From Halanaerobium saccharolyticum (GTDB lineage Bacteria > Bacillota > Halanaerobiia > Halanaerobiales > Halanaerobiaceae), in assembly GCF_004362045.1 (NCBI RefSeq), contig NZ_SNWX01000005.1, positions 62,001 to 126,000 of the forward strand: a stretch of DNA of 64,000 nucleotides, written 5' to 3'. Shown here piece by piece: positions 2,811-30,544 of this stretch. The notes below the pieces were generated by a model that saw nothing but the letters and a program-made list of their open reading frames with translations, searched no databases and was not told the origin of the DNA. Position numbers and translations under genes: made by a program. Numbering within the stretch: the first letter of the stretch is position 1; each line of letters starts with the position of its first letter.

Positions 2811-2820
2811 GTAATTTTAT

Positions 2821-2858
2821 AAAGCTGTACTGTGGTTTTAAAACTGCAGTACAGCTTT
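2821..2858 (+). other. Intercistronic hairpin between binding protein and permease genes
   Basis: AAAGCTGTACTG (2821-2832) pairs perfectly with CAGTACAGCTTT (2847-2858), and the loop contains a second small palindrome (gttttaaaac). No T-tract follows and the next gene starts 20 bp later. I read it as an mRNA-stabilising or partial-stop element that keeps binding-protein mRNA above permease mRNA, not as a full terminator. Confidence 0.6.
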
Positions 2859-2877
2859 AATTAAAGGAGGTCATCTG

Positions 2878-14824: not shown

Positions 14825-14838
14825 TAAAAACGTTTTCC
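14825..14838 (+). promoter_or_regulatory. LacI-type operator upstream of the lacI-family gene
   Basis: taaaaacgttttcc contains the perfect palindrome AAAACGTTTT and one full TTTTCC half-site. It matches the 14-bp sites at 16100, 16242 and 29518 (GGAAA-N4-TTTCC type) except in the left outer bases. Its place just upstream of the regulator's promoter suggests autoregulation. Confidence 0.55.
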
Positions 14839-14875: not shown

Positions 14876-14913
14876 TATTTTGATAAATGAGATATTTTTG
14901 GAAGGAGTTTATC

Positions 14914-15945
14914 ATGGCAAATAAAGAAATTACCATTAAAGATGTAGCAAAACTTGCTGAATGTTCACCTACAACAGTTTCCAGGGTTATAAATAATAGT
15001 GATCACCCTGTTAGTCAGGATACTGCTGAGAAGGTTCAGGCGGCAATTGAAAAATTAAATTTTTCACCAAATAGAATTGCTCAGGGTTTAAAGAGTGATA
15101 AGTCAAATATAATAGGTGTGATTGTTCATGATATCTGTGATTCATATTTTGCTCAGATGGTCAAAGGGATAGAGGAATTCATTTCCGGTCATGAATACAT
15201 TGTTAATATTTATAACACCAGCCGCAGTGTAGAAAAAGAACTGCACGCAGTTAATATGTTAAAGGCTAATCGAGCTGATGCCATTGTTTTTGCTGGTGGT
15301 GCACTGATGGACAAAGAATATGAGCAAAAAATGTATACTATAATTGAGCAGTTAAAAAGTCAAAACACAGTTCTGCTTGGAGTTACTCCTCATCCATTTG
15401 AAATAAAAAATATTAATTTAGGCAACCAAAAGGCTGCAGCCATGATAACAGAATATTTAATAGAGCAGGGGCATCAAAAAATAGCATTTGTAGATGGACC
15501 TCAAAATTTATATACAAGTTATTTAAGAAGAAAGGGATTAAAAGAATCTCTTAACAAATATAATTTGAATTTAAACGATGAGCTGATTTTTTCTGGAGAC
15601 TTTAGTTTTGAAGGAGGCAGAAAGGCAGCTTTGGAATTATTAAAGAAAATTGATGAGATAACAGCAGTTTTGGCTGCTAATGATGCTACAGCACTTGGCT
15701 TGATCTGGGAGCTCAACAATCAGGGGATCAAAGTACCTGAAGATATTTCTGTTGTTGGAATAGATGATTTACCAGAAGCAAAATATTCTTATCCACCACT
15801 GACAACAGTTTCTCTGCCGATTTATCAGTTGGGGACAAATATAGGTAAATATCTACTGAAAAGTTTAACCAATGATCAGAGTTCAGATTTAGAAAGTGTT
15901 GAGATGAAATTAATTAAAAGAAAATCTGTTAAAAAAATCATATAA
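14914..15945 (+). CDS. LacI-family transcriptional regulator
   Basis: 343 residues from the ATG at 14914, chosen because gaaggag stands seven bases before it and the family's HTH begins four residues in; an in-frame upstream start would add nine unrelated residues. The HTH (ITIKDVAKLAECSPTTVSRVINNS) is canonical, with the hinge helix ending NRIAQGLKS. A periplasmic-binding-protein-like sensor domain follows, with the dimer region VVGIDDLPEAKYSYPPLTTV. It sits upstream of an ABC sugar operon, and matching 14-bp palindromes are found at that operon, its own promoter and the gene at 29558. I infer that it is the local repressor of this regulon; the inducer is unknown. Confidence 0.93.
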   Translation: MANKEITIKDVAKLAECSPTTVSRVINNSDHPVSQDTAEKVQAAIEKLNFSPNRIAQGLKSDKSNIIGVIVHDICDSYFAQMVKGIEEFISGHEYIVNIYNTSRSVEKELHAVNMLKANRADAIVFAGGALMDKEYEQKMYTIIEQLKSQNTVLLGVTPHPFEIKNINLGNQKAAAMITEYLIEQGHQKIAFVDGPQNLYTSYLRRKGLKESLNKYNLNLNDELIFSGDFSFEGGRKAALELLKKIDEITAVLAANDATALGLIWELNNQGIKVPEDISVVGIDDLPEAKYSYPPLTTVSLPIYQLGTNIGKYLLKSLTNDQSSDLESVEMKLIKRKSVKKII

Positions 15946-16026
15946 GATTATTACTTATATTCCAGTCGTAACAGCAGATTTAGAAAGGACTGAAAAGAGA
16001 AAAAATAAAAAATATTTGAAAATTGT

Positions 16027-16055
16027 TTGACAATTAACAGACAATCATTTATAAT
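16027..16055 (+). promoter_or_regulatory. Consensus sigma-A promoter of the sugar ABC operon
   Basis: TTGACA (16027-16032), 17 bp, TATAAT (16050-16055): a perfect match to both consensus boxes. Predicted transcription start is near 16062, leaving a leader of about 385 bases before the ATG at 16448. Confidence 0.8.
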
Positions 16056-16099
16056 ATGAACAGTGAGTAAATTTTTTTTGCTTTTTTTATTTGAATTAA

Positions 16100-16113
16100 G
16101 GAAACTGTTTTCC
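16100..16113 (+). promoter_or_regulatory. LacI-type operator 1 of the sugar ABC operon
   Basis: ggaaactgttttcc has symmetrical GGAAA/TTTCC arms around CTGT. It lies about 40 bases downstream of the predicted start of transcription, so a bound repressor could act as a roadblock or pair with the site at 16242. Confidence 0.7.
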
Positions 16114-16241
16114 AAAACTTAAATATTATTAATTATATGATAACTTTTATCTTAGGAGAATAAATTTGCTTGTCGAATTCTAATTAGAGATCTAATAAAG
16201 TTTCTATTTATCTAAAAATTTATAATATTTTTTTAATTAAT

Positions 16242-16255
16242 GGAAAACATTTTCC
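16242..16255 (+). promoter_or_regulatory. LacI-type operator 2 of the sugar ABC operon
   Basis: ggaaaacattttcc has six-base arms GGAAAA/TTTTCC. It is 142 bp from the 16100 site, a distance that would allow repression by looping if the regulator tetramerises. Confidence 0.7.
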
Positions 16256-16447
16256 TAAATAAGATTTACAGATAATATATTGGGATAAGGATATAAGACT
16301 GTATTTATTTTAAACCATCTAAAAAAGGGGGGCAGTGATTTTCTCTAATCTTTCAACCGAGAAAGATCATAAGTTTATAAGAATTTTAATTTATCACTCA
16401 GAAAACGAACATATGAAGAATCAATTAAATTCCAAGGAGGAAATTAA

Positions 16448-17800
16448 ATGTTTAATAAAAAAAGTTTATTTTCAGTAATAATGATAATTGTATTAACTAT
16501 TAGTTTTAGTTCTGTAGCCCTTGCTGAAATTGAAGTAATTGAAAATCCAAGTTGGCCAGAGGAACAATTAGGTGCAAAACCTGATTTTAGCAATTATAAG
16601 GGGGAAAAAATTGAATTAACTTTATGGCATTTTTCACAAGGACAAATAAAATATTTAAAACCATTTGCAAGAGAATTTGAGAAACTTTATCCAGAAATTG
16701 ATCTTACTATAAACTTACAGCAGATGCCTTCTGATCAAATGTGGAATTCACTTGCAACTTCACTAATGGCGGGTCAAGGAGCTCCTGATATAACAGCTAT
16801 GGAAATTGGACAAACCTCAAGGTTTTTCGTTGAACCTTTTGTTGACCAGTTTAAAGAAATAGAATTAAGTAATTATTTAAAAACTGATTTAATTAAGCAG
16901 GAACCATACACTGCTAATGGTAAATTATTAGCAGTTGAAAGTGCTGGTCCACACCCGGTATTTATGTTTTATCGGAAAGATTTATTTAAAGAAGCAGGAA
17001 TTGAGATGCCAATTGAAACCTGGGATGAATTTATTGATGCAGGGCTCAAAATGAAAAAAGAAATTGGGGTTCCAATTACTTTATTTCCATTAAAAAATAT
17101 AACTTGGGGTAGTTGGATGCCATTATCTTTAATTGTACAAAATAGTAATCCTATTTATAACGAAAATAATGAGTTAATAATAAATAATGAAAAAGGTCAA
17201 GAAGTATTTAAAATGATTAAGGATATGGTTTATAAATATGAAATTGCTGTTGATGCTGAACCAGACAATCCATTAACTCAACAACGTTTAGTCGGTTCAC
17301 ACCAAGATCAAATTGCCTCAATGGTTGCGCCTTTATGGTTCCCGGGTTCAAGACTTTTTAATAAAATTGATGATCCTATATTTGGTTTAGCACCGTTACC
17401 TAAATTCGATAATAGTTCTAATCAGACATCAACTTGGGGTGGTACAGGGCTTTCTATTGTTGAGTCCCAAACTGAATATCCAGATATTGCAGAAGCTTAT
17501 ATTAAATTTGTGCTATCTTCTAAAAATCAAATCAGAAAATTTGAAACTACAAATTATCTTCCAGTTGTCAAAAGTGCTTTACATTCAAATGCAGTAATTA
17601 ACTATACACTTCCCGATGTATATGGGGAACAAAAGGTTGGAGAATTATATGCAGAATATACTTCTGAACTCCCTGCACTTAATATCGGACCTGGTTTTGC
17701 AAGTGTTGATGCCGAAATTAGGAATAGAATGAATGAATTAGCTGAGATGGATGTTAAGGAATGGTTAGATAAAATTGTTGAATTTCAGAATGAACTTTAG
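16448..17800 (+). CDS. Extracellular sugar-binding protein of ABC importer, family 1
   Basis: 450 residues with a signal peptide (MFNKKSLFSVIMIIVLTISFSSVALA). It is an SBP_bac_1 (MalE/UgpB-like) protein: IELTLWHFSQGQIKYLKPFAREFEKLYPEI near residue 55 is the family's first lobe, and GVPITLFPLKN and STWGGTGLSIV are typical lobe contacts. Ligand unknown. Partners are the two permeases directly downstream; no ATPase gene is present, as is usual for this class, where one shared MsmX-like ATPase serves many importers. The gene begins a visibly AT-richer operon than its surroundings. Confidence 0.92.
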   Translation: MFNKKSLFSVIMIIVLTISFSSVALAEIEVIENPSWPEEQLGAKPDFSNYKGEKIELTLWHFSQGQIKYLKPFAREFEKLYPEIDLTINLQQMPSDQMWNSLATSLMAGQGAPDITAMEIGQTSRFFVEPFVDQFKEIELSNYLKTDLIKQEPYTANGKLLAVESAGPHPVFMFYRKDLFKEAGIEMPIETWDEFIDAGLKMKKEIGVPITLFPLKNITWGSWMPLSLIVQNSNPIYNENNELIINNEKGQEVFKMIKDMVYKYEIAVDAEPDNPLTQQRLVGSHQDQIASMVAPLWFPGSRLFNKIDDPIFGLAPLPKFDNSSNQTSTWGGTGLSIVESQTEYPDIAEAYIKFVLSSKNQIRKFETTNYLPVVKSALHSNAVINYTLPDVYGEQKVGELYAEYTSELPALNIGPGFASVDAEIRNRMNELAEMDVKEWLDKIVEFQNEL

Positions 17801-17813
17801 TTAAAGCTTGGAT

Positions 17814-17839
17814 GCTGCACAGATTGAAATCTGTGCAGC
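17814..17839 (+). other. Perfect intercistronic hairpin between binding protein and permease genes
   Basis: GCTGCACAGATT and AATCTGTGCAGC are 12-base perfect arms with only two bases between them. No T-tract follows, and the permease RBS (ggaggt) is 12 bases downstream. Likely role: 3' stabiliser of the binding-protein message and partial stop. Confidence 0.7.
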
Positions 17840-17861
17840 TAAAATAAATGGAGGTTTCAAA

Positions 17862-18722
17862 ATGAATAAAAAATATGTACCACTAATGTTTTTAACACCA
17901 TTTTTAATTTTTTATATAATTTTTTTATTAATACCAATTTTTTATGCATTTTTTTTAAGTGTTCACAATTGGCAGGGAATTGGCCCCTTCAATTTTGTTG
18001 CTTTTGAAAATTTTATAAATATTTTCAAAGATGAAGTAGCAACAACTGCTTTGATAAATACTTTCATTATGGCTGGTGGAACTTTAGCTTTAAGCCTTCC
18101 CATATCACTTTTGTTAGCTTTATTAATAAATAGTGAGTTATTACCTTTCAAAGGGTTTTTTAGAGTTGTATATTTTATGCCAAGAGTAATTGCTTTATCT
18201 GTTAGTGGAGTTATATTTTTAATTTTACTTCATACAGATTATGGGGTTTTTAATTATATTTTAAGAAATTTAGGTTTAATTTCAGAAAACATTCCCTGGT
18301 GGCAAAGTTCTTTTTATGGTAAGTTGGGAATAATTTTAATAAGGTCATGGATTTCTATTCCATTTATGATGATCTATTTTTTAACTGGTCTACAAAATAT
18401 ACCAGTTGAATTATATGAAGCTGCAAATATTGATGGTGCAAACCTAATGCAAAAATTCACTTTTATAACTGTTCCAATGTTAAAACCTATTGCATTATTT
18501 ATTTTTATAACCAGCACAGTTTTTTCTTTTCAAATATTTACTATTCCATATATGATTACAAATGGAGGACCAAGCAATGGAACTCTTACTATAATTCAGT
18601 ATATGTTTAGTCGCGGTTTAAATAATTTTGAATTTGGTATGGCATCAGCAGTAAGTGTGGTATTATTTGTATTTTTAGCTGTATTATCATATATTCAAAT
18701 AAAAATTGGTTCAAATAATTAG
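17862..18722 (+). CDS. Sugar ABC transporter permease (MalF/UgpA type)
   Basis: 286 residues with six TM segments; the first is at about residues 6-28. The EAA loop is at about residues 188-207 (ELYEAANIDGANLMQKFTFI), the docking site for the shared ATPase. I place the start at ATG 17862 behind aatggaggt; the open frame extends upstream through the hairpin but without a start in a sensible context. It forms the membrane channel with the next gene, 18 bp downstream. Confidence 0.92.
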   Translation: MNKKYVPLMFLTPFLIFYIIFLLIPIFYAFFLSVHNWQGIGPFNFVAFENFINIFKDEVATTALINTFIMAGGTLALSLPISLLLALLINSELLPFKGFFRVVYFMPRVIALSVSGVIFLILLHTDYGVFNYILRNLGLISENIPWWQSSFYGKLGIILIRSWISIPFMMIYFLTGLQNIPVELYEAANIDGANLMQKFTFITVPMLKPIALFIFITSTVFSFQIFTIPYMITNGGPSNGTLTIIQYMFSRGLNNFEFGMASAVSVVLFVFLAVLSYIQIKIGSNN

Positions 18723-18739
18723 AGATGAGGTGATAAAAA

Positions 18740-19564
18740 ATGAACAAAAAAATTAATAAATTAATATTTTTTATAATTGCAATTTTAGTAGCTATAATTA
18801 TTATTTTTCCCTTATACTGGCTATTTATTGGCTCGATACAAAAATCAGGTGATATATTTGCATATCCCCCCAATTTTATACCCGAAAAAGTTAATATAGA
18901 TAATTTTTTGAATTTGTTTGAAAGAGATATTCCTTTTTATACTTATTTTTTTAATAGTGCTTATACAGTTTTTTTCCATGTGTTAGGGGTGTTAGTTTTT
19001 AGTTCAATGGCAGGTTTTGCTTTAGCTAAGTATAATTTTAGAGGAAAAAAAATAATTTTTTCTATTATTATTGCAGGGATGTTAATCCCTTTTCAAGCTT
19101 TAATTATACCACTTTTCTTAGTATCACAAAAGCTTGGTATATTTGATAATAGAATAGCTTTATTTTTGCCATTTTTTGCTCAACCATTTGCTGTGTTTTT
19201 AATGAGACAATATATGTTAGAAATTCCAGATTCTCTTATGGAAGCAGCAAGAATAGATGGTGCTTCTGAACTAAGAATTTTTTGGCAGATTGTTACTCCG
19301 ATTATAAAACCTGCCTTTGCTGCAGTTGCAATAGTTGATTTTGTTGCAGCCTGGAATGCTTTCGTATGGCCTTTAACTATTTTAAGAACACAATCTAAAT
19401 TCACTTTGCCAATATGGTTGAATGCTTTGATTAAAGATCCTTATGTAGTAGATTATGGGTTGATGTTTGCGGCTGCTTTAATAACTGTTTTACCTATATT
19501 AATTGCATTTCTATTTTTACAAAAGCAATTTATTTCGGGTTTGGCTGCTGGAGCAGAAGACTAA
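18740..19564 (+). CDS. Sugar ABC transporter permease (MalG/UgpE type)
   Basis: 274 residues with six TM segments. The EAA loop is DSLMEAARIDGASELRIFWQIVTP near residues 160-183, and the C-terminus (FISGLAAGAED) is the typical MalG-family ending. It pairs with the upstream permease. Base composition is very AT-rich: I count 11 G/C in the 60 bases 18901-18960. No lesions. Confidence 0.92.
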   Translation: MNKKINKLIFFIIAILVAIIIIFPLYWLFIGSIQKSGDIFAYPPNFIPEKVNIDNFLNLFERDIPFYTYFFNSAYTVFFHVLGVLVFSSMAGFALAKYNFRGKKIIFSIIIAGMLIPFQALIIPLFLVSQKLGIFDNRIALFLPFFAQPFAVFLMRQYMLEIPDSLMEAARIDGASELRIFWQIVTPIIKPAFAAVAIVDFVAAWNAFVWPLTILRTQSKFTLPIWLNALIKDPYVVDYGLMFAAALITVLPILIAFLFLQKQFISGLAAGAED

Positions 19565-19604
19565 ATATCAAAGTTATTTATTAAAGAATTATAAGGAGTT
19601 TATT

Positions 19605-20432
19605 ATGAAACTATCATTTAGTACTTTGTCATGTCCCGACTGGAATATAGACAAGATAATCAATTTTGCATTAAAAAACAACTTTGATGGGGTTGAATTA
19701 AGAGGGAAAGAACCACATATTAGTGTAAATTATAATAAACAAAAACGAAAAGAAATTAAAAATAAGTTTAAAGAAAATAATTTAGAAATACCCTGTATTA
19801 CCGCTTATACAAGATTTGGTTATCAGGATTATAGTTTACGTCAGCAAAATATTAAGGAATTAAAAAAGATGATTGACCTGGCTTCTGATATTGGAGCTAA
19901 ATATATCAGGACATTTGGTCCAGATCCTGATAATTCTTTTAATTTGGAAAAAATAATAGAGTGGATTAGGGAATCTTTTATAGAAATCGATGATTATGCA
20001 TCAAAAAAGGGAGTTGTAGTTTTGTTGGAAAGTCATGATGAACTCTGTAAAGGTAAAGATCTAATTAAAATCTTTGATAATTCAGATCTGAAAAGCTGTG
20101 GAATTTTGTGGGATGTTGCTCATTCAATTAGAGCAGGTGAAGGAATAGAAAAAACTATAAAATATCTTAAGAATTATATTTATCATATTCACTTAAAGGA
20201 TTGGATTAGTATTCCCAGCAAGAAGGAAGATTATTTTGTTTTATTAGGAGCAGGAGAGTTAAATTTATTAAAACTTTTATCAGAACTAAATAATATAAAT
20301 TATAATGGTTATTTATCTTTAGAATGGGAAAAAAAATGGCATCCTGAGATTGAGGAATCAGAAATCGCTATAGAGCAATATTCTAAAAAAATGAGAAATT
20401 ATTATTTAAATAATAATTTAAATAAATTGTAA
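19605..20432 (+). CDS. Sugar phosphate isomerase/epimerase-like TIM-barrel protein (IolE/IolI/xylose-isomerase superfamily)
   Basis: 275 residues from ATG 19605, behind ataaggag. It belongs to the AP-endonuclease-2-like TIM-barrel family: LSFSTLSCPDWNIDKIINFA at the start, NFDGVELRG, a metal-site Glu in VVLLESHDE, an Asp/His pair in ILWDVAHS, HIHLKDW near residue 197 and a final Glu in LSLEWEKKWHPEI. In this superfamily these residues bind a divalent metal and catalyse keto-enol chemistry on sugars or keto-inositols. Its place between a sugar importer and a Gfo/Idh dehydrogenase suggests it acts on the imported sugar or its oxidised form. Exact substrate unknown. Confidence 0.85.
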   Translation: MKLSFSTLSCPDWNIDKIINFALKNNFDGVELRGKEPHISVNYNKQKRKEIKNKFKENNLEIPCITAYTRFGYQDYSLRQQNIKELKKMIDLASDIGAKYIRTFGPDPDNSFNLEKIIEWIRESFIEIDDYASKKGVVVLLESHDELCKGKDLIKIFDNSDLKSCGILWDVAHSIRAGEGIEKTIKYLKNYIYHIHLKDWISIPSKKEDYFVLLGAGELNLLKLLSELNNINYNGYLSLEWEKKWHPEIEESEIAIEQYSKKMRNYYLNNNLNKL

Positions 20433-20453
20433 TAAAATATTGGAGGTTTAAAT

Positions 20454-21680
20454 ATGAGAAAAGTTGGTTTGGCTGTAGTTGGGGTAAATAATTTTGCAGA
20501 ATTTTATTTAGATAAAATAGCAGAACTAGAGTCTGAAGAACAAATTAAACTTACAGCTGTTGTAATACATGATCAGGTAAATAATGCTGATAAAGTTAGA
20601 GAGTTAAGACATAAAGGTATTGCAGTATATAGTTCATATGAAAGTTTGCTTAAAGATGCTAAATCATGTGTAGATATAATTGGTTTACCTGTCTCAATCC
20701 CAACTCATGCAGAAATGGCAATTAAAGGAATGAATGCAGGTTATAATATACTTTTAGAAAAGCCACCTGCACCAACAGTACAGGAAATAGATGCAATAAT
20801 TAAAACTGAGAAAGAAACAGGTAGATTTTGTTCAATAGGTTTTCAATTTATCCATTCTCATACAATTAGAAAGATCAAGCAGTTTATTTTAGAGGGTAAA
20901 TTAGGTGAGATTAAAGAAATTGCTGCTAAAGGTTTTTGGCCCCGATTTAAATCGTATTATGATCGTAATGATTGGGCCGGAAAAAGTATAGCAATGGGAC
21001 AACTTGTTTTAGATGGTCCAATGCATAATGCCTTTGCTCATTATTTAAATAATATGATTTTTATTGCTAGCTCTGAGATGAATAAATCTGCCTCTTTAAA
21101 AAGAATTAGGGCAGAATTATATAGAGCCCATTCTTACATAGAAGCTGATGATACATCATGTATGGAAATAGAAACAGTTAATGGAGTTAGTATATATTTT
21201 TACGTTACACATGCACCGGAAGAATTAAGACATCCTTATATGGAGATAATAGGAGAAAAAGGAAGAATAAAATGGAATATGGAAAATGAAAAAACAGTTA
21301 TTGAATTAAAAAATAACGAAGTAATTCAATTTGATAACAATAATATAGACCCCTATAAAGAAGAATTTAGAGTAGTTGCCAGGAAACAACTTGGAGAAAT
21401 AAAAAATTTATACTGTACACCAGAAAACACAAGAAATTTTGTGGTAGCAATTAATGGTGCTTATGATTCGGCTCAAAAGATTAAAGCTGTTCCTCAGGAT
21501 TTAATAGAAGAGTTCACCAATGATGATGGTGAATATCAGACTGTATTACCTGGTATTGATAAATTAATTGACCGTGCTTTTGCAGAAAGAAAATTATTAT
21601 CTGACTTAGAAATTGACTGGGCAGTTAAAACAAAATGGGTTAATGTAGAGAACTATCCTGGTTTTAATCCGTTTAATTAG
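20454..21680 (+). CDS. Gfo/Idh/MocA-family NAD(P)-dependent oxidoreductase
   Basis: 408 residues. The N-terminal Rossmann fold opens with KVGLAVVGVNNFAEFYLDKIAE, the family's EKP motif is present (LLEKPPAPTVQEI, near residue 103), and the C-terminal domain carries a His in DGPMHNAFAHYLNNM. The family oxidises or reduces hydroxyl groups of sugars, inositols and sugar acids. The glycine motif is loose (GVNNFA rather than GxGxxG), which is tolerated in this family. It lies 21 bp after the isomerase-like gene and 16 bp before the flavoprotein, so the three probably act in sequence. Substrate not predictable. Confidence 0.88.
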   Translation: MRKVGLAVVGVNNFAEFYLDKIAELESEEQIKLTAVVIHDQVNNADKVRELRHKGIAVYSSYESLLKDAKSCVDIIGLPVSIPTHAEMAIKGMNAGYNILLEKPPAPTVQEIDAIIKTEKETGRFCSIGFQFIHSHTIRKIKQFILEGKLGEIKEIAAKGFWPRFKSYYDRNDWAGKSIAMGQLVLDGPMHNAFAHYLNNMIFIASSEMNKSASLKRIRAELYRAHSYIEADDTSCMEIETVNGVSIYFYVTHAPEELRHPYMEIIGEKGRIKWNMENEKTVIELKNNEVIQFDNNNIDPYKEEFRVVARKQLGEIKNLYCTPENTRNFVVAINGAYDSAQKIKAVPQDLIEEFTNDDGEYQTVLPGIDKLIDRAFAERKLLSDLEIDWAVKTKWVNVENYPGFNPFN

Positions 21681-21696
21681 GAAGGGATTTGATTAA

Positions 21697-22986
21697 ATGT
21701 ATAATAAAAAATTTAATTATAGTTCTCTAAAAGAGCTGCGGGCGGATTTGTCTGAGCTTGATTTTGAACTGCCCTTAACAGAGAACGTAGAGATATTAAA
21801 AAAAGAAATAAAATTAGACGATTTGGATATTCCAAATCGAATTGCTATTCATCCGATGGAAGGGGCAGATGCTAATTTAGATGGAACACCTTCTGATTTG
21901 ACCAGAAGAAGGTATAAGCGCTTTGCTAATGGTGGTGCTGGTTTGATCTGGTTGGAGGCAATTGCTGTAAACGATTCTGGTAGAGCAAATAATAGTCAGC
22001 TTTACTTAAATAAAGATAATTTGTCTCCTTTTAAGCGTTTAGTTGATCTTATAAATAGTGAATCAAAAGTTGATCCTTATCTGGTGGCTCAACTAACTCA
22101 TTCAGGTCGATTTGGAAAAAATAAAATCATAGCTTTTAGAGATAAATACATTGATTCTATTTCAATAGAAGAAAATGATTTTCATATAATAACTGATTCT
22201 GAGCTTGATCAGCTGCAGCTTGATTATTTACAGGCAGCAAAATTAGCGGTTGAAGCCGGTTTTGATGCTGTAGATATTAAAAGCTGTCATCGATACTTAT
22301 TATCTTCTTTGCTTGCAGCGTATGATCGGGAAGGTAAATATGGTGGAAGCTATGAAAACAGAACACGTTTTCTTAAAGAAACAATACAAAAAATTAGAGA
22401 TAATGTTGATATTGATATCACAGTACGATTAAATATTTATGATGCCATTCCAGGGGGATGGTCAACAGATCAGAATGGTGAGCCTGATTTAAAAGAAACA
22501 GCTAAATTAATTAAAGAATTAGAGAAAATTGGAGTTCAAATAATTAATATTACTGCAAGCACCCCCTATTTAAAACCACATATTAATCGCCCCTATGACA
22601 ATGGCGAATATATTCCTTCAGAACACCCCCTAATTGGAGTGAAAAGGTTACTTGAATTAACTAAATTTACTAAAGAACAATTAACTAAAACATTAGTTGT
22701 TGGTACTGGTTTCAGTTGGCTCAGGCAATTTGGAGGTAATACTGCTGCAGGAATGATTGAAGATGGCTGGACAGATCTGGCTGGTTTTGGTCGTCAGGCA
22801 TTTGCTTATCCTAATTTTGCCAATGATATTTTTGAAAACGGGGAAATGGATAAAACTAAAGTCTGTATCAGCTGCAGTAAATGTGCAGAATTAAAGGCTA
22901 ATAAAATGAAAGCAGGCTGTGTAGTCAGAGATTCAGAAATTTATCTTCCTATTTATAAACAATTAAAAACTCAAAAAACTTCTTGA
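21697..22986 (+). CDS. NADH:flavin oxidoreductase / Old Yellow Enzyme family protein with Fe-S motif
   Basis: 429 residues. An FMN TIM barrel starts near residue 45 (IPNRIAIHPMEGADANLDGTP) with VAQLTHSGRFG and FDAVDIKSCHRYLLSSLLA in the expected places. After the barrel comes C390-x2-C393-x2-C396-x11-C408, a 4Fe-4S motif as in 2,4-dienoyl-CoA reductases. The protein ends 21 residues later, so the NAD(P)/FAD domain of the full-length enzymes (about 640-670 residues) is absent. It must take electrons from another protein. Last gene of the LacI-linked operon; substrate unknown, possibly an unsaturated or keto sugar derivative. Confidence 0.85.
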   Translation: MYNKKFNYSSLKELRADLSELDFELPLTENVEILKKEIKLDDLDIPNRIAIHPMEGADANLDGTPSDLTRRRYKRFANGGAGLIWLEAIAVNDSGRANNSQLYLNKDNLSPFKRLVDLINSESKVDPYLVAQLTHSGRFGKNKIIAFRDKYIDSISIEENDFHIITDSELDQLQLDYLQAAKLAVEAGFDAVDIKSCHRYLLSSLLAAYDREGKYGGSYENRTRFLKETIQKIRDNVDIDITVRLNIYDAIPGGWSTDQNGEPDLKETAKLIKELEKIGVQIINITASTPYLKPHINRPYDNGEYIPSEHPLIGVKRLLELTKFTKEQLTKTLVVGTGFSWLRQFGGNTAAGMIEDGWTDLAGFGRQAFAYPNFANDIFENGEMDKTKVCISCSKCAELKANKMKAGCVVRDSEIYLPIYKQLKTQKTS

Positions 22987-23003: not shown

Positions 23004-23038
23004 ATAGAAATAGCCACAATCTTTGTGGCTATTTCTAT
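23004..23038 (+). terminator. Terminator of the LacI-linked operon
   Basis: A 15-bp perfect stem, 23004-23018 with 23024-23038 (core GCCAC/GTGGC), 5-base loop, AT-rich tail. The rest of 22987-23207 holds no gene. Confidence 0.75.
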
Positions 23039-23207: not shown

Positions 23208-24746
23208 ATGTCTAAAAATAATTTACCAGGCATAGATCGAAAATATTTAGAGTCAGAACTGCTGGGTACAGAATTAGCTGATTTTCCAGCTGAAATTCTT
23301 GATTATCCAGAAAAAGTAGTGCAGATTGGTGAAGGGAATTTTCTAAGAGCTTTTGTTGACTGGATGTTTCATACCATGAATAAAAAGGGGATTTTTAAAG
23401 GAAGAGCGGTTGTGGTTCAGCCAATTAGAGAGGGAAGAATTTCTAATTTAAATGATCAGGACGGCTTATATACATTATACTTAAGAGGGATTGAAAATGG
23501 AGAAGAAGTAAATAAAAAAGAAATAATGACAGCTATTTCACGCGGTCTTGAATCATATGCTCAGTGGGAAGAGTATCTAAAGTTGGCAGAAAATCCTGAA
23601 ATAGAATTTGTAGTTTCCAATACTACAGAAGCAGGTATTGCCTATAATGAAGATGATAAATTAACTGATACACCTCCAGAATCTTATCCTGGTAAACTGA
23701 CTGCCTATCTTTACCGCCGCTATCAGACCTTTAATGGTGCTCAAGATAAAGGGATGGTAATTATTCCGGTTGAATTAATTGACCGTAATGGAGATAATTT
23801 AAAAAGAATTATCTTAAAGTTAGCTGAGAACTGGAAATTAGAAGCCGGATTTTCCGAGTGGATTGAAGAATCAAATCATTTCCTCAATACACTTGTTGAT
23901 CGGATTGTAACCGGTTATCCTTTCAATGAAATAGATGATCTGGAAGCAGAATTAGGTTATCATGATCAGAACCTGGACACCGGCGAAATTTTCCACCTCT
24001 GGGTGATTGAAGGTGATGAAAAGTTAAAAGAAAAACTACCCTTCCATAAAGCTGGTTTAAATGTTAAGTGGGTTGATGATTTAACTCCTTACCGGACAAC
24101 CAAAGTTAGAATTTTAAATGGTGCTCATACTTCAACAGTGCCTGTGTCCTATCTAGCAGGAATTGATCTGGTTAGAGATGCAGTTAATGATGAGTTAGTC
24201 GGTGAATTTATCAGGCAGGCAGTTTTCGAAGATATTATTCCTACACTGGATGCAGATGAAGATGAATTAGAAGATTTTGCATCTAAGATATTTGAACGAT
24301 TTAAAAATCCATATATTGATCATAAATGGCTTGATATTTCCTTGAATTCAACTTCTAAATTCAAAACTCGAGTTCTGCCATCACTGGTCCAGCATATTGA
24401 AAAGCTGGATAAAGTTCCAGAGCGTTTAAGTTTTGCTTTAGCTTCCCTGATTCATTTCTATCATGGCACAGAGTTAGAAGAAGGTAAACTTGCAGCTTTC
24501 CGTAATGGAGAAAAATATTTAATCAGGGATGATCAAGAGGCACTGGAATATTTTGTGGATCTCTGGTCTAAATATGAAGCTGAAGAAATTACTCTGGCTG
24601 AATTAGGAGAAGATGTACTGGCAAATGAAGATTTCTGGGCCAGAAATTTAAATGAACTTCCAGGATTAACTGATTCCTTAACTAATAATTTAAAAATGAT
24701 TAAAAAAGAAGGAATGAAGACAAGTTTAGAGAAATTAATTAAATAG
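23208..24746 (+). CDS. uxaB: Tagaturonate reductase (altronate oxidoreductase), mannitol dehydrogenase family
   Basis: 512 residues. The enzyme reduces tagaturonate to altronate with NADH in the galacturonate branch. It is a long-chain polyol dehydrogenase: VVQIGEGNFLRAFVDWMFHTMN (NAD-binding, about residues 38-59), VVSNTTEAGI, and the catalytic stretch KVRILNGAHTSTVP with Lys and His. This pattern is closer to UxaB than to UxuB or mannitol dehydrogenase, but some such enzymes accept fructuronate as well. Being the only such reductase in the window, it may serve both branches or depend on UxaE downstream. RBS aaggggg, start ATG. Confidence 0.88.
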   Translation: MSKNNLPGIDRKYLESELLGTELADFPAEILDYPEKVVQIGEGNFLRAFVDWMFHTMNKKGIFKGRAVVVQPIREGRISNLNDQDGLYTLYLRGIENGEEVNKKEIMTAISRGLESYAQWEEYLKLAENPEIEFVVSNTTEAGIAYNEDDKLTDTPPESYPGKLTAYLYRRYQTFNGAQDKGMVIIPVELIDRNGDNLKRIILKLAENWKLEAGFSEWIEESNHFLNTLVDRIVTGYPFNEIDDLEAELGYHDQNLDTGEIFHLWVIEGDEKLKEKLPFHKAGLNVKWVDDLTPYRTTKVRILNGAHTSTVPVSYLAGIDLVRDAVNDELVGEFIRQAVFEDIIPTLDADEDELEDFASKIFERFKNPYIDHKWLDISLNSTSKFKTRVLPSLVQHIEKLDKVPERLSFALASLIHFYHGTELEEGKLAAFRNGEKYLIRDDQEALEYFVDLWSKYEAEEITLAELGEDVLANEDFWARNLNELPGLTDSLTNNLKMIKKEGMKTSLEKLIK

Positions 24747-24826: not shown

Positions 24827-26350
24827 ATGTCCTGGAAAGATTTTGCGGAAGAACTTGTTGGAACTTCAAAAGAGGCTGTTAAAAAGGTAGCTGAATATGC
24901 AGAAGATTATCGAATTTACCCTCGTTCTATAATTAAAGAAGGAAAGTCATTTTATTTTCTGGCTAAAATTGATCAGAAAAAGAAACTGGTGATTTTAAAC
25001 AAAAGTAAAAATTTCGAACTGTTTCAGGGTAAAACCGAGGAACTGGCAGGTTTTAAATCAAAAGTTGCTCCTTTAAGCCACTATAATGCAGATCTATTGC
25101 GAGAAGTTTTTCCTTTTACTGCTCCTCAAGCTTTAGGAAATCAGACACCCAGTATTGGGCTTGGAGATCGACTGGGTATTGCAACTCCCGGGCACATTGA
25201 AGCTGTTAAGGATAGTGCTGCCCTACCTGTCTTTGCCCAGCAGTCAGTAAGAGAACTCAATTTGACTGGTCGGACATTTAAATCGGTGCTTGATGATGTC
25301 ACTTGGGCTGTTTTTCAGGAAGGATATCAGGATGGGTTTGCTGCTGATGCTGATCATTTAAAAGAAAAACCTGATATTCAAGAAGCGCTGGATCTTGGTT
25401 ATAGTATGCTTACTTTAGATTGCACAGAATATATCAATGATAATCTTGATCAGATGTCTGAAGCTGAAATAGAAGAGGCCTATCAGGAAGTACCTGATTA
25501 TCTAAGAGATGGTCTGGAAGATCAGTATTTAGATAAAACTTTTGTACTCAATTCCGGTTATCAGCTTGAATATAATCAGGATAATTTCAAAAAAATAGTA
25601 TTGATTTATTATAAGATGCTCGATTTTGCTAAGGAGATTCAGCACCTGATCAAAAAATCAGATAAAGATGTAGACTTTGAAATTTCAATTGATGAGACTT
25701 CAACTCCTACTACACCAGAAGCCCATTTCTTTGTAGCCAATGAATTAAAAAGAAATAATATTGATGTTAATTCTCTGGCTCCACGTTTTGTGGGGGAATT
25801 CCAGAAGGGTATTGATTATATGGGTGATCTGGAGCAGTTTGAAAAAGAATTTAAAATTCATGCCGATATTGCAGAACGTTTTGGCTATAAATTAAGTATC
25901 CATTCTGGTAGTGATAAATTTAGTGTTTTCCCAATTATTGGCCGTCATACTCAGGGGAGAGTCCATGTTAAAACTGCCGGTACTAATTGGCTGGAGGCAA
26001 TTAGAGTAGTTGCTGAAAACGACCCTTCATTATATCGGGATATTCATGCTTATGCTTTAGAAAAATTTGAAGCAGCTAAAGAATTCTATCATGTGACTAC
26101 TGATCTTTCACAACTACCGGAGCTGGCACAGCTTAGTGACCAGGAACTGGGAGAGTTATTAGAAATTGATGAAGTAAGACAGCTGCTGCATATTACCTAT
26201 GGTTTTATACTTCAGGATAAAAAAGATGGACGTTATCTTTTTAGAGATAAATTATATAAATTCTGGGATGAACATGATAAGGAATACCGCCGAGCTTTAG
26301 AAAGACATATCGGCAAACATCTGAGCAAACTCGGTTTTTACAAAAAATAA
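24827..26350 (+). CDS. uxaE: Tagaturonate/fructuronate epimerase
   Basis: 507 residues, matching the UxaE family first assigned in Thermotoga. It interconverts D-tagaturonate and D-fructuronate, so galacturonate and glucuronate can share one downstream branch. Recognisable blocks: RLGIATPGHIEAVK, FAADADHLKEKPDI (metal site), FEISIDETSTPTTPEAHFF and FGYKLSIHSGSDKFSVFPIIGRHTQG with the conserved His residues. The enzyme is metal-dependent. Being between uxaB and uxaC supports the call. RBS aaggaggt. I see no lesion. Confidence 0.87.
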   Translation: MSWKDFAEELVGTSKEAVKKVAEYAEDYRIYPRSIIKEGKSFYFLAKIDQKKKLVILNKSKNFELFQGKTEELAGFKSKVAPLSHYNADLLREVFPFTAPQALGNQTPSIGLGDRLGIATPGHIEAVKDSAALPVFAQQSVRELNLTGRTFKSVLDDVTWAVFQEGYQDGFAADADHLKEKPDIQEALDLGYSMLTLDCTEYINDNLDQMSEAEIEEAYQEVPDYLRDGLEDQYLDKTFVLNSGYQLEYNQDNFKKIVLIYYKMLDFAKEIQHLIKKSDKDVDFEISIDETSTPTTPEAHFFVANELKRNNIDVNSLAPRFVGEFQKGIDYMGDLEQFEKEFKIHADIAERFGYKLSIHSGSDKFSVFPIIGRHTQGRVHVKTAGTNWLEAIRVVAENDPSLYRDIHAYALEKFEAAKEFYHVTTDLSQLPELAQLSDQELGELLEIDEVRQLLHITYGFILQDKKDGRYLFRDKLYKFWDEHDKEYRRALERHIGKHLSKLGFYKK

Positions 26351-26403
26351 TTTATTTTATGATTAGTTATGGATTTTAATTAAAATAGATGATATTATGA
26401 TTA

Positions 26404-26417
26404 TGAAAACATTTTCA
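26404..26417 (+). promoter_or_regulatory. Palindrome in front of uxaC, LacI- or CcpA-like site
   Basis: tgaaaacattttca has perfect arms TGAAAA/TTTTCA. It differs from the LacI-type sites (GGAAA...TTTCC) only in the outermost two base pairs, and from a CcpA cre site in the centre (CA instead of CG). It lies 30 bases before the uxaC start. Confidence 0.45.
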
Positions 26418-26447
26418 AAAGTTAAATATCACATTAGGAGGAATAAA

Positions 26448-27821
26448 ATGTCTTTTTTAGATAAAAATTATTTACTTGAAGGTGAAACAGCAAAAAAATT
26501 ATACAAAGAAATTGAAAATTTACCGATTTTAGATGCACACAACCACGGAGATGTGCCAGAAATTTTAGCCAATGAAGGCTGGAATGATATCTGGGAGGTT
26601 GAAGCTGAAACTGACCACTATGTCTGGGAGATGATGCGTAAAAGAGGTGTTCCGGAAGAAAAAATTACCGGTGATGCTTCCAATAAAGAAAAATGGATGG
26701 CTTTAGCAAAAATCTTTCCAGAAATTGCAGGAAATCCAACTTATGAGTGGGTTCATCTTGATTTAAAACGACGGTTTGGAATTGAAGAGCCTATTTCTGA
26801 GCATACAGCAGAGATGATTTGGGAAAAAACTAAGAATATGCTGGCTAAAGAAGAAATGAGCCCCCAGAATTTATTAAAAGAAATGAATGTTGAGATTATG
26901 TGTACTACAGATGAGCCATATTCTCGCCTGGAAAATCATAAAAAAGCAAAAGAAGAGGTAGAAGGAGTAAAGATTCTTCCTACCTGGCGTCCTGATAAAA
27001 TAATGAATATTGAACACCAAAACTGGTCTGAATATGTTGAAAAATTAGGAGATGCTTATGAACAGGATGTTAACGATTTAGATGGTCTTTTAACTGCTCT
27101 TAAAAAGTCTCACGATTATTTTGATGAAATGGGCTGTGTAGCCAGTGACCACGGGATTGTGGAGCCGATTTCTTATAAAGTTGAGAAATCAAAGGCTGCT
27201 GAGATTTATAAAAAAGCAGTTAATGGTGAAGAATTAACTGAAGCGGAAATTAGAGATTTTAAAGCCTTTACTTTAGTTGAATTCGCTAAATTAAATAAGG
27301 AAAGCGGCTGGGTAACCCAGCTGCATATTGGAGCTGTTAGAGACTATCGAGACAGCCTTTATGAAAATTTAGGCCCTGATACAGGTGGGGATATTTCTAA
27401 TAGTGATATTGAGCTGGCTGAGAATTTAAAGTATTTTGTTAATAAATTTGATTCTGAGTTAGACATTGTACTTTATACAATGGAGCCAACTCACTGGTTT
27501 ACAGCTTCTACAATTTCCAGAGCTTTTCCAAATGTTTCATTAGGAGCTCCCTGGTGGTTAACTGATAGTCCCTTTGGGATGGAAAGACAGCTGCAGCAGG
27601 TTACAACTGTAGATTTATTTTATAATCTTGCAGGGATGGTAACAGACTCCAGAAAATTAATGTCTTATTCTTCTCGTTCAGAAATGTTTAGAAGAACCTT
27701 AGCCAATGTTGTCGGCCGTCAGGTTGATCGTGGTAGAATGCCTTACAGTGTAGCTTCAGATCTGGTTGCACATGTAAGTTACTATGGACCAAAGAAACTT
27801 TTTTTTAAAAACGTAAAATAA
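26448..27821 (+). CDS. uxaC: Glucuronate/galacturonate isomerase
   Basis: 457 residues from ATG 26448, chosen because aggagg precedes it by five bases; the open frame runs 17 codons further upstream across the palindrome at 26404. UxaC converts D-glucuronate to D-fructuronate and D-galacturonate to D-tagaturonate. It is an amidohydrolase-fold enzyme: LPILDAHNHGDVPEI carries the HxH metal motif (HNH), and WVTQLHIGAVRD and LGAPWWLTDSPFGME are UxaC blocks. It receives glucuronate from GH67 and GH2 beta-glucuronidase in this window. Length is normal for the family. Confidence 0.95.
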   Translation: MSFLDKNYLLEGETAKKLYKEIENLPILDAHNHGDVPEILANEGWNDIWEVEAETDHYVWEMMRKRGVPEEKITGDASNKEKWMALAKIFPEIAGNPTYEWVHLDLKRRFGIEEPISEHTAEMIWEKTKNMLAKEEMSPQNLLKEMNVEIMCTTDEPYSRLENHKKAKEEVEGVKILPTWRPDKIMNIEHQNWSEYVEKLGDAYEQDVNDLDGLLTALKKSHDYFDEMGCVASDHGIVEPISYKVEKSKAAEIYKKAVNGEELTEAEIRDFKAFTLVEFAKLNKESGWVTQLHIGAVRDYRDSLYENLGPDTGGDISNSDIELAENLKYFVNKFDSELDIVLYTMEPTHWFTASTISRAFPNVSLGAPWWLTDSPFGMERQLQQVTTVDLFYNLAGMVTDSRKLMSYSSRSEMFRRTLANVVGRQVDRGRMPYSVASDLVAHVSYYGPKKLFFKNVK

Positions 27822-27899: not shown

Positions 27900-29405
27900 A
27901 TGGGAGCCAGAGTTTTGTTAATTAATGATAATGATAATATTGTGATTGCAGTTGAAGAAATAGATGCTGGAGAAGTAATTGAAGTCAGAGGAGAAAAAAT
28001 AAAGATTTTAAGTGATATCCCTGTGGGACATAAGGTAGCTTTAAAAGATTTTAAAGCAGGTGATAAGGTAATCCGTTATGGTTTTCCAATCGGTAAAGCA
28101 ACTGAAGAAATAACAAAAGGAGAATGGATCCATACCCATAATTTAAAAACTGCTCTAGAAGGAAAACTGGATTATGATTATCAGCCTGATCTACCTGAGG
28201 AAGAAAAACCAGATAAGATGCCTACTTTTATGGGATACAGACGTGAAAACGGTAAAGTTGGGATTCGAAATGATATCTGGATTATCAACACAGTCGGCTG
28301 TATCAATAAAGTAGTGGAAAAAATAGCTTTAAAAGCTGAGATGAAATACGAAGAATTAATAGAAAATGAAGTTATTGACAGTATTCATGCGTTTCCTCAT
28401 CCCTATGGTTGTTCTCAGCTTGGTGATGATTTAGAGATGACTCAGAAAGCTCTGGCGGGTCTGGTTAATCATCCCAATGCAGCAGCTGTAATGGTTGTTG
28501 GTCTGGGTTGTGAAAACAATTTAATTGAGGATTTCAAAAAATATATCGGCGATTATAATTCAGAGAGAGTTAAGTTTATCAATCTGCAGGATGTACAGGA
28601 TGATCAAAAAGCAGCAGAGTCAATTTTAGATAATCTGGTAAATTACGCTAAAGATTTTAAGCAGGAAGAAGTTCCAGTTTCAGAATTAAAGATTGGTTTA
28701 AAATGTGGAGGCTCAGATGGTTTTTCTGGAGTAACAGCTAATCCTTTACTGGGCAGAATTTCTGATAAACTTACCAGTTATGGTGGAACAAGTATTTTAA
28801 CTGAAGTTCCAGAGATGTTTGGTGCCGAAACTATTTTAATGAATAGAGCCAGAGATGAAGAAACTTTTGAAAAAGTAGTTGAGCTAGTCAATGGATTTAA
28901 AGATTATTTCCTCTCTCATGATCAGGAAATTTACGAAAATCCATCACCGGGAAATAAAGAGGGTGGAATTACTACCTTAGAAGAGAAATCTCTAGGCTGT
29001 ACCCAAAAAGGTGGAACGGGAATTGTTAAAGATGTATTTTTTTATGGTGACCAGGTTACAGGTAGTGGCTTAAACTTACTGGAGAGTCCGGGAAATGATT
29101 TAGTAGCGACAACTGCTCTCTCATTATCTAGAGCCCATATGGTGCTGTTTACTACCGGTAGAGGAACACCCTTTGGTGGTCCGGTGCCAACAGTTAAGGT
29201 TTCAACTAATAATCGTTTGTATAATCAGAAGCGCAACTGGATTGATTTTAATGCAGGCGAACTGCTTGAAGGTCGAAAAATGGACTCTCTGGCAGAAGAA
29301 TTTTTTGAATATCTGCTTGACCTTGCTTCTAAGAAAACTAAAACCAAAAATGAAATTAATGATTATCGAGAAATAGCAATCTTTAAAGATGGAGTTACTT
29401 TATAA
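27900..29405 (+). CDS. uxaA: Altronate dehydratase
   Basis: 501 residues, single-chain form joining an N-terminal SAF domain (about residues 1-90) to the C-terminal catalytic UxaA domain. It dehydrates D-altronate to 2-keto-3-deoxygluconate. Typical blocks are YRRENGKVGIRNDIWII, FPHPYGCSQLGDD, GLGCENN, LKCGGSDGFSGVTANPLLG and the C-terminal TTGRGTPFGGPVPTVKVSTN. The cysteines in HPYGC, GLGCENN and LKCGGSDG are the usual metal or Fe-S ligands. RBS gaggaggt. Completes the galacturonate branch with UxaC and UxaB. Confidence 0.94.
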   Translation: MGARVLLINDNDNIVIAVEEIDAGEVIEVRGEKIKILSDIPVGHKVALKDFKAGDKVIRYGFPIGKATEEITKGEWIHTHNLKTALEGKLDYDYQPDLPEEEKPDKMPTFMGYRRENGKVGIRNDIWIINTVGCINKVVEKIALKAEMKYEELIENEVIDSIHAFPHPYGCSQLGDDLEMTQKALAGLVNHPNAAAVMVVGLGCENNLIEDFKKYIGDYNSERVKFINLQDVQDDQKAAESILDNLVNYAKDFKQEEVPVSELKIGLKCGGSDGFSGVTANPLLGRISDKLTSYGGTSILTEVPEMFGAETILMNRARDEETFEKVVELVNGFKDYFLSHDQEIYENPSPGNKEGGITTLEEKSLGCTQKGGTGIVKDVFFYGDQVTGSGLNLLESPGNDLVATTALSLSRAHMVLFTTGRGTPFGGPVPTVKVSTNNRLYNQKRNWIDFNAGELLEGRKMDSLAEEFFEYLLDLASKKTKTKNEINDYREIAIFKDGVTL

Positions 29406-29517: not shown

Positions 29518-29531
29518 GGAAATTGTTTTCC
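29518..29531 (+). promoter_or_regulatory. LacI-type operator in front of the second Gfo/Idh gene
   Basis: ggaaattgttttcc has GGAAA/TTTCC arms, the same 14-bp form as the sites at 16100 and 16242. It lies 26 bases before the GTG start at 29558 and links this gene to the regulon of the LacI gene at 14914. Confidence 0.65.
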
Positions 29532-29557: not shown

Positions 29558-30544
29558 GTGAAAATAGTGTTAATTGGATCAACCGGTCATACTAATTATG
29601 TTGTTAATGGACTTAAGGATAATTATGAAGATCAGATTGTAGGAATTGCTCCTGGATCAGAAGGAGAAAATGTAGATTCCTTATATCAAAAGTTAGCAAA
29701 AGACTATGAAATAGAAAAATATAATGATTATAAAGAAATGCTGGATGATCTGAAACCAGATGTGGCTGCTGTTGCCTGTCATTTTGGGGATCATGCAGAT
29801 GCAGCAGTTGAAGTATTAAATAGAAATATTGATTTATTTGTAGAAAAACCAATTGCCACCACTCTTGCCAAACTGGATGATGTTAAATCTGCTTACGAAA
29901 AAAGTGAGTCTAAACTTGTTTCTATGTTTGGAATTCGCTATAAGCCCTGGTTTTTAACTGTCTATAAATATATAAAAGAAGGAGCAATTGGAGAGGTAAG
30001 ATTAATGAATGCTCAAAAATCATACCGCTTAGGTCAGCGGGCTGAATTTTATAAAAAACGAGAAACATATGGTGGAACTATTCCCTGGGTTGGAAGTCAT
30101 GCTATTGACTGGATGCAGTGGTTGAGCGGTAAAGATTTCAAATCGGTGTATGCCTCTCATTCAACTAAAGCCAACCAGAATCACGGGGAACTCGAGGTTT
30201 CTGCTCTCTGTCATTTTAATTTTGAAGATGAGATTTTTGGTTCAGTAAATATCGATTATCTCAGACCTCAGAATGCTACCAGTCATGATGATGATCGGAT
30301 TAGAATAGCTGGTGATAAGGGAGTTATTGAGGTCTTAAAAGAAAAAGTTTATTTAATTAATGATCAGATTGAAGGGAGCAGAGAACTTCCTTTAGTCGCA
30401 AATAAAGAAATATTTGCTGACTTTTTAGATTGGGTTAAAGGTCAGGGAGAATGCTTAATTAGTGCGGAAGAATCTTTTAGAGTAACTGAGGCTGCTCTGC
30501 AGGCTAGAGAATCAGCAGATAAGAAACAGCTAATTCAATTTTAA
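29558..30544 (+). CDS. Gfo/Idh/MocA-family oxidoreductase
   Basis: 328 residues starting at GTG 29558; aaagaggt ends seven bases before it, and the Rossmann strand (VKIVLIGSTGHTN) starts there. The longer open frame from 29486 would run through the operator. EKPIATTLAKL near residue 104 is the family's EKP motif, and GGTIPWVGSHAIDWMQWLSG carries the C-terminal catalytic His/Asp. These enzymes oxidise or reduce sugar hydroxyls with NAD(P). The LacI-type site in front suggests co-regulation with the 16448-22986 operon, although it stands among uronate genes. Substrate unknown. Confidence 0.87.
   Translation: MKIVLIGSTGHTNYVVNGLKDNYEDQIVGIAPGSEGENVDSLYQKLAKDYEIEKYNDYKEMLDDLKPDVAAVACHFGDHADAAVEVLNRNIDLFVEKPIATTLAKLDDVKSAYEKSESKLVSMFGIRYKPWFLTVYKYIKEGAIGEVRLMNAQKSYRLGQRAEFYKKRETYGGTIPWVGSHAIDWMQWLSGKDFKSVYASHSTKANQNHGELEVSALCHFNFEDEIFGSVNIDYLRPQNATSHDDDRIRIAGDKGVIEVLKEKVYLINDQIEGSRELPLVANKEIFADFLDWVKGQGECLISAEESFRVTEAALQARESADKKQLIQF

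Follow-up and report, generated by a model that had tools for sequence, protein, structure and literature searches.

In the 7-dehydroxylation of bile acids, flavoproteins of the Old Yellow Enzyme (OYE) type carry out both ketone-to-enone and enone-reduction chemistry: an NAD alcohol dehydrogenase makes the ketone, BaiCD and BaiH (with BaiN) form or reduce the enone, and reduction follows dehydration (PMC10382948). In the levoglucosan pathway (lgdA-B1-B2-C), oxidation at C3 is followed by elimination, hydration and reduction by a second dehydrogenase (PMC7676230). The hexuronate pathway proceeds through UxaC, UxaE, UxaB and UxaA under UxaR-type regulons, and we found neither an OYE nor a FAD protein described there (PMC3750489, PMC8579813). 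Here we report the analysis of a window of 64,000 nucleotides from Halanaerobium saccharolyticum (NZ_SNWX01000005.1, positions 62,001 to 126,000), in which a predicted LacI-controlled sugar-import operon encodes a Gfo/Idh dehydrogenase and an OYE, with hexuronate enzymes encoded directly behind it. Halanaerobium is a salt-loving, fermenting bacterium. To our knowledge, C=C redox chemistry is not established in carbohydrate catabolism for flavoenzymes of the Old Yellow and fumarate-reductase types.

The gene for the LacI-family regulator (14914-15945, assigned with Pfam; the reading frame opens at 14887, with a better ribosome-binding site at the 14914 start) is followed by six structural genes, all on the forward strand like the GFO2, FADox and uxa genes of the window given below. 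These encode a carbohydrate ATP-binding cassette (ABC) substrate-binding protein of the SBP_bac_1/8 type (16448-17800; PF13416/PF01547), two BPD_transp_1 permeases of the MalF/UgpA type (17862-18722) and the MalG/UgpE type (18740-19564; both PF00528), an AP_endonuc_2 or xylose-isomerase-like barrel (AP2; 19608-20432; PF01261), a Gfo/Idh/MocA dehydrogenase (GFOa; 20454-21680; PF01408) and an OYE-type FMN protein with a [4Fe-4S] motif (21697-22986; PF00724). Further along the window lie the genes for a second Gfo/Idh protein (GFO2; 29558-30544, GTG start, assigned with Pfam) and for a FAD_binding_2 or fumarate-reductase-like flavoprotein (FADox; 34238-36235; PF00890). The genes and families that the initial annotation had placed at 14914-22986 all agree with the reading frames and Pfam, and its description of the OYE as having an Fe-S motif and no NAD(P) domain was correct. 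It had counted a five-gene operon, where we find six structural genes behind lacI and no ATPase gene, and its scheme left out FADox, the strongest functional partner.

Among the described systems, the bai pathway is the nearest working analogy, but it acts on another class of substrate, and the window OYE has no NAD domain and reaches only 97 bits against the BaiCD cut-off of 825. The levoglucosan pathway is the nearest sugar analogy and is alike in its oxidation by a dehydrogenase, its elimination from a 3-ketosugar and its second dehydrogenase; it differs in that the eliminated intermediate is hydrated and not passed to flavoenzymes, and GFOa scores 37.5 bits against a cut-off of 650. The Escherichia coli ycjMNOPQRSTUV-ycjW cluster, on which the papers retrieved were only incidental, likewise combines a LacI regulator, a CUT1 importer, an AP2 barrel, a Gfo/Idh protein, a further dehydrogenase and a phosphorylase (GH112 in our related locus L035), but has no OYE, no FAD_binding_2 protein and no link to uronate or 2-keto-3-deoxygluconate (KDG) metabolism. 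No catalogued pathway model was matched, in line with the earlier statement that this combination fits no known catabolic pathway. In the open-licence papers that were searched, neither OYE nor FADox is described in sugar catabolism, and an Anaerostipes inositol study does not mention a flavoenzyme.

The strongest correlate of the OYE, and its constant companion across genomes, is FADox. All co-occurrence counts were made on the same sample of 299 genomes; OYE was found in 19 genomes, FADox in 29, GFOa in 19 and GFO2 in 11. FADox is present in 19 of the 19 genomes with OYE compared with 10 of the 280 without it (Fisher test, p=4e-23), and the association persists when the sample is collapsed to genera (13/13 compared with 7/201, p=3.5e-16). 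FADox also accompanies GFOa in 18 of 19 genomes and GFO2 in 11 of 11. Since OYE and FADox are encoded on different contigs in some of these genomes (G101, G139, G173, G202, G060, G079, G120 and G152), their coupling is not merely that of one travelling operon. FADox itself is recognized by PF00890 (44.7 bits, cut-off 20.4) and is remotely fumarate-reductase-like, and falls outside the named families (TfrA, 94 bits against 718; nadB, 69.5 against 452.75). Taken together, the comparisons show a predicted core of GFOa, OYE and FADox, often joined by GFO2, a zinc alcohol dehydrogenase (Zn-ADH) or a short-chain dehydrogenase/reductase (SDR).

A second line of evidence comes from the genomes that have FADox and no OYE. 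Seven of these ten encode an FMN barrel resembling dihydroorotate dehydrogenase (DHODH) or PreA; four of the genomes concerned represent one genus. In six of the seven the chain also contains two [4Fe-4S] motifs (PF01180 plus Fer4), and in these six genomes the PreA-like gene adjoins FADox (L105-L108, L110 and L111). At the same threshold the barrel is found in none of the 19 genomes with OYE, and the two were never found together. The PreA/dihydropyrimidine dehydrogenase and DHODH-type barrels belong to a different Pfam family (PF01180) from the OYE, score 216 bits against a PreA cut-off of 335, and take the place of the OYE beside FADox in Caldicellulosiruptor-like genomes. These distributions show a predicted non-orthologous replacement of the OYE by a DHODH/PreA-like barrel. 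Both barrel families would carry FMN and [4Fe-4S] cofactors and, because two protein families with the same cofactors fill one slot, this slot probably represents a real redox step. We note that the cluster in L105 (6955-17087, genome G216; likewise in L106-L108), presumably from Caldicellulosiruptor, which is amenable to genetics, comprises an importer, GFOa, Zn-ADH, FADox, the PreA-like protein, GFO2, a GH106 protein and a GDSL esterase.

The OYE is a protein of 429 amino acids in which Oxidored_FMN is the only domain (PF00724, 106.6 bits, cut-off 27), the C-terminal FAD/NAD(P) domain being absent from the chain. Behind the barrel lies a cysteine cluster, C390-x2-C393-x2-C396-x11-C408, whose four cysteines are invariant in 20 aligned rows, and the Fe-S cysteine motif is kept in 34 of 36 sequences. 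In addition to its low BaiCD score, the protein is below the equivalog cut-offs for BilR (103 bits against 750) and the mycofactocin OYE (99.5 against 793). As these named models are far below cut-off and the closest solved relative matches only at E=2e-23, the window OYE is assigned by sequence to a distinct subfamily. At the active site, where residue roles follow those of YqjM-type OYEs, the IHAAHGY segment of PDB entry 3krz aligns with IKSCHRY, so that Lys195 stands for the first histidine while His198 and Tyr200 are retained, giving K-x-C-H-x-Y in place of H-x2-H-x-Y, and HPMEG stands where the usual active-site cysteine segment would be. In three relatives of 878-903 amino acids the OYE forms one chain with a GltD-like NAD(P)H dehydrogenase (L046, 1240-3915; L081, 9469-12180; L085, 8738-11374), as indicated by length in all three, by the domain visible in the L046 translation and by a family scan on L081. 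These fusions suggest that FMN in the window OYE communicates with a separate electron partner, probably by way of the Fe-S cluster. AlphaFold models of two sequences had a mean pLDDT of 41.9 and were not used.

The nearest named match to the OYE, and the sole match in the contig scan, is from H. kushneri (79% identity). Relatives with 45-79% identity are present in 16 of 40 related genomes as well as in the genome itself, and a search of plasmids yielded a single distant locus, from the gut and unannotated. L073 also encodes, at 1661-3064 and beside GFOa, an additional OYE-like protein (38% identity) that has no Fe-S motif; it lies two genes from the Fe-S type.

GFOa belongs to the Gfo/Idh/MocA superfamily (61 bits, cut-off 24), with invariant E102-K103-P104. 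It is far below the cut-offs for the glycoside and levoglucosan 3-dehydrogenases (NF052479, 37.5 bits against 650; NF058563, 35.5 against 650; NF058561, 31.3 against 750), and neither it nor GFO2 approaches the IolG model TIGR04380 (54.7 and 77.8 bits, respectively, against 355). AP2 is recognized as a member of the PF01261 superfamily (131.5 bits, cut-off 31.1) and not as IolO (67.1 bits against an equivalog cut-off of 300). The initial annotation had named a lack of co-occurrence elsewhere, or a match to described inositol or 3-keto-glycoside routes, as what would speak against novelty. This check did not refute it: IolG, levoglucosan dehydrogenase, glycoside 3-dehydrogenase and IolO all prove to be far below cut-off. 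Residues D169, H195 and E239 are invariant across the AP2 proteins of the OYE loci. The window AP2 has its single orthologue in L035 (60% identity), and those of other clusters are 15-27% identical to it. AP2 thus recurs as a superfamily and not as one enzyme. Two observations concern these families more widely. PDB entry 3ip3, called only 'oxidoreductase, putative', is very close to GFO2 (E=2e-109), and the gene context offers it a candidate pathway. Outside the window, L091 (6124-10053, G000:C9) holds an AP2-Gfo/Idh-Gfo/Idh-AP2 cluster with LacI and an importer; in L038 and L041, though not in L091 itself, OYE paralogues flank the orthologues of its first pair.

The gene order (lacI)-SBP-MalF-MalG-GFOa-OYE, with SBP the substrate-binding protein, is found in five Halanaerobium loci, and in four of the five (L032, L033, L034 and L036) the contig runs on into uxaB-uxaE-uxaC-uxaA-GFO2. 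In the window the corresponding genes encode the tagaturonate reductase UxaB (23208-24746; NF002969, 688 bits, cut-off 359), the tagaturonate epimerase UxaE (24827-26350; PF16257, 687 bits), the uronate isomerase UxaC (26397-27821; NF002794, 536 bits, cut-off 387) and an altronate dehydratase-type UxaA (27900-29405; PF20629/PF04295/PF08666). The transporter of the sister operons is not orthologous to that of the window, whose permeases it matches at 33% and 31% identity. As the sister operons also have no AP2, the window carries a different import cassette, together with AP2, ahead of a conserved core. The proposed co-occurrence of the enzyme families therefore stands for Gfo/Idh and OYE, which occur together widely, but not for the AP2 'isomerase', which is accessory to the core. 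L035 has the order SBP-MalF-MalG-GH112-GFOa-OYE-AP2-FADox-aldolase-kinase, and relatives of KDG kinase and aldolase are found beside OYE or FADox in L035, L039, L042 and L079. Elsewhere, OYE is accompanied by FADox, SDR, Zn-ADH, URO-D-like and IlvD-like genes and Tct or TRAP transporters. A URO-D/MtaA-like gene with no obvious corrinoid partner recurs beside FADox or OYE in L075, L076, L077, L080, L087 and L116.

A perfect sigma-A-type promoter (TTGACA-N17-TATAAT, 12/12 consensus matches) is located at 16027-16055. Exact palindromes of the form GGAAA-N4-TTTCC follow at 16100-16113 (GGAAACTGTTTTCC) and 16242-16255 (GGAAAACATTTTCC), and a third precedes GFO2 at 29518-29531 (GGAAATTGTTTTCC). The first two both lie downstream of the expected transcription start, as would suit a repressor. 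The palindrome family described previously is thus exact at three of its sites, while the one before lacI (14825-14838, TAAAAACGTTTTCC) is degenerate, with two mismatches; in the relatives L042 and L045 exact sites are found upstream of lacI. One-mismatch palindromes are not enriched in the window (four found compared with 4.8 expected), exact ones are at chance level genome-wide (11 sites compared with 10 for a reversed control), and a match at C4:781 falls within a transporter reading frame and was discarded. The window and genome statistics were set aside as evidence, and footprinting over homologous loci was used instead. Ten module- and LacI-linked loci (167 kb) contain 16 exact palindromes compared with 0.40 in simulation, whereas other loci (456 kb) contain two compared with 1.03. 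All 16 sites in linked loci precede an importer, GFO2, OYE or lacI: they stand before the importer and/or GFO2 in L031-L034 and L036, and before OYE or lacI in L040 and L042-L045. The LacI recognition helix TTVSRV(I/L)N is kept in 9 of 9 orthologues. On the grounds of this enrichment, the placement of the sites and the conserved helix, the predicted LacI regulon holds; it spans the importer-Gfo/Idh-OYE operon and GFO2, including the remote site at 29518, as the initial annotation had supposed. Orthologues of GFO2 share a gene cluster with OYE in L039 and L042.

In our view, there is about an even chance that the operon combines an importer with a portion of a conserved oxidoreductive catabolic module, one that would act on a pectin-associated sugar, glycoside or sugar acid and drain into hexuronate/KDG metabolism. 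The importer would bring in the substrate, and a Gfo/Idh enzyme with NAD+ would turn a hydroxyl into a ketone. The ketone would acidify the adjacent C-H and so allow elimination of a hydroxyl or glycosyl group to give an enone, catalysed by the AP2 metal enzyme in those loci that have it. OYE and FADox, which both belong to C=C redox superfamilies, would then carry out C-C/C=C hydrogenation or dehydrogenation, with electrons passing by way of the [4Fe-4S] cluster between the FMN of the OYE and a separate partner, either an NAD(P)H dehydrogenase or FADox itself. GFO2 would reduce the leftover ketone, and the product would pass to UxaC-UxaE-UxaB-UxaA or to KDG kinase and aldolase. The substrate, the order of the reactions and the reductive or desaturating role of the OYE are all proposals. 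More tentatively, the module may perform a bai-like reductive dehydroxylation or redox isomerization of sugars, in which an NAD dehydrogenase makes the ketone. The FMN/[4Fe-4S] barrel and the FAD flavoprotein would then act as a pair, perhaps in a single complex that exchanges electrons, and rearrange C-C/C=C bonds of the sugar to give KDG by a non-textbook route that would be widespread in anaerobic Bacillota-like bacteria.

Several observations weigh against the module as we describe it. AP2 is missing from the sister operons L031, L032, L033, L034 and L036, and some OYE loci (for example L072-L074 and L041) have no uronate genes nearby. FADox lies 11 kb from OYE and, as no operator within one mismatch precedes it in the window, is not visibly part of the LacI regulon. 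The glycosidases near the module vary by lineage (GH112, GH51, GH106, GH31, GH38 and GH39); since they differ between clusters, a family of related substrates is suggested.

Of the alternatives, an ordinary 3-keto-glycoside route, of the kind represented by levoglucosan use, E. coli ycjQRS or the Bacteroides glycoside 3-dehydrogenases, survives best, although we consider it rather unlikely. Gfo/Idh would oxidize C3, AP2 would epimerize or eliminate, GFO2 would reduce, and the OYE would just clear reactive 2-hydroxy-3-keto-glycal side products. The combination of ABC importer, LacI, AP2 and Gfo/Idh does resemble the levoglucosan architecture (PMC7676230), levoglucosan and disaccharide 3-dehydrogenases are among the named families nearest to GFOa, and L035 includes the GH112 phosphorylase. 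However, GFOa is far from the cut-offs of all three of the corresponding models, AP2 is dispensable in the sister operons, and a scavenger of side products would not be expected to couple 19/19 with a second flavoprotein or to be swapped for another FMN/Fe-S barrel.

It is less probable still that the substrates are unsaturated uronates from polysaccharide lyases, with Gfo/Idh making a C3 ketone, OYE reducing the C4=C5 enone and the remaining steps leading to KDG without KduI. The KDG kinase and aldolase genes adjoining the module would fit, as would the absence of GH88/GH105 from 32 of 33 OYE-positive genomes and of PF04962 (KduI/IolB) from 11 of 17 OYE-positive relatives, which leaves the textbook route incomplete in many of these genomes; but the H. 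saccharolyticum genome has two PF04962 genes, and the window contains the remnant of a GH28 hydrolase, not a lyase (lyases were not searched for). Catabolism of an inositol-like cyclitol, with Gfo/Idh and AP2 as relatives of IolG and IolE/IolO and OYE reducing a cyclohexenone intermediate, appears improbable: the similarity to IolG and IolO is weak, with cut-offs that are not approached, and although the Zn-ADH partners resemble IolM, no iolB/C/D was recognized in the clusters and the neighbours are hexuronate and KDG genes. Chance insertion into a sugar operon of a stress or xenobiotic reductase with no relation to it is most improbable. OYEs are often orphan reductases, but this reading is contradicted by the conserved Gfo/Idh-OYE adjacency, the operators and the phylogenetic profile.

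Some further features of the window and its surroundings were noted. Strong inverted repeats, read by eye, lie in the gap between the binding-protein and permease genes (17815-17840) and just past OYE (23009-23037), and look like an mRNA-stabilizing hairpin and a terminator, respectively. A GH28 gene from 30626 is broken by a stop near 30870, and its remainder runs into an abhydrolase fragment that is divided between two frames; we read the whole (30626-32779) as a decayed pectinase/esterase pair. A GH94-family disaccharide phosphorylase gene (36376-38808) adjoins FADox on the reverse strand. Just beyond the window on the same contig, a KduI-family gene with more Gfo/Idh and AP2 genes (G000:C5:132397-137982) is, from its gene content, another uronate-type cluster.

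All of the parts belong to known enzyme superfamilies, and oxidoreductive sugar catabolism is itself already known. Both the phylogenetic profile and the swap of two different FMN/Fe-S barrels that exclude each other indicate a real pathway step that is common to at least ten bacterial families. In Caldicellulosiruptor the galacturonate steps past UxaC are reported to be missing and two sugar clusters to be uncharacterized (PMC8579813). The module may bear on these unexplained galacturonate steps, and it provides a short list of candidate genes for pectin use in anaerobes.

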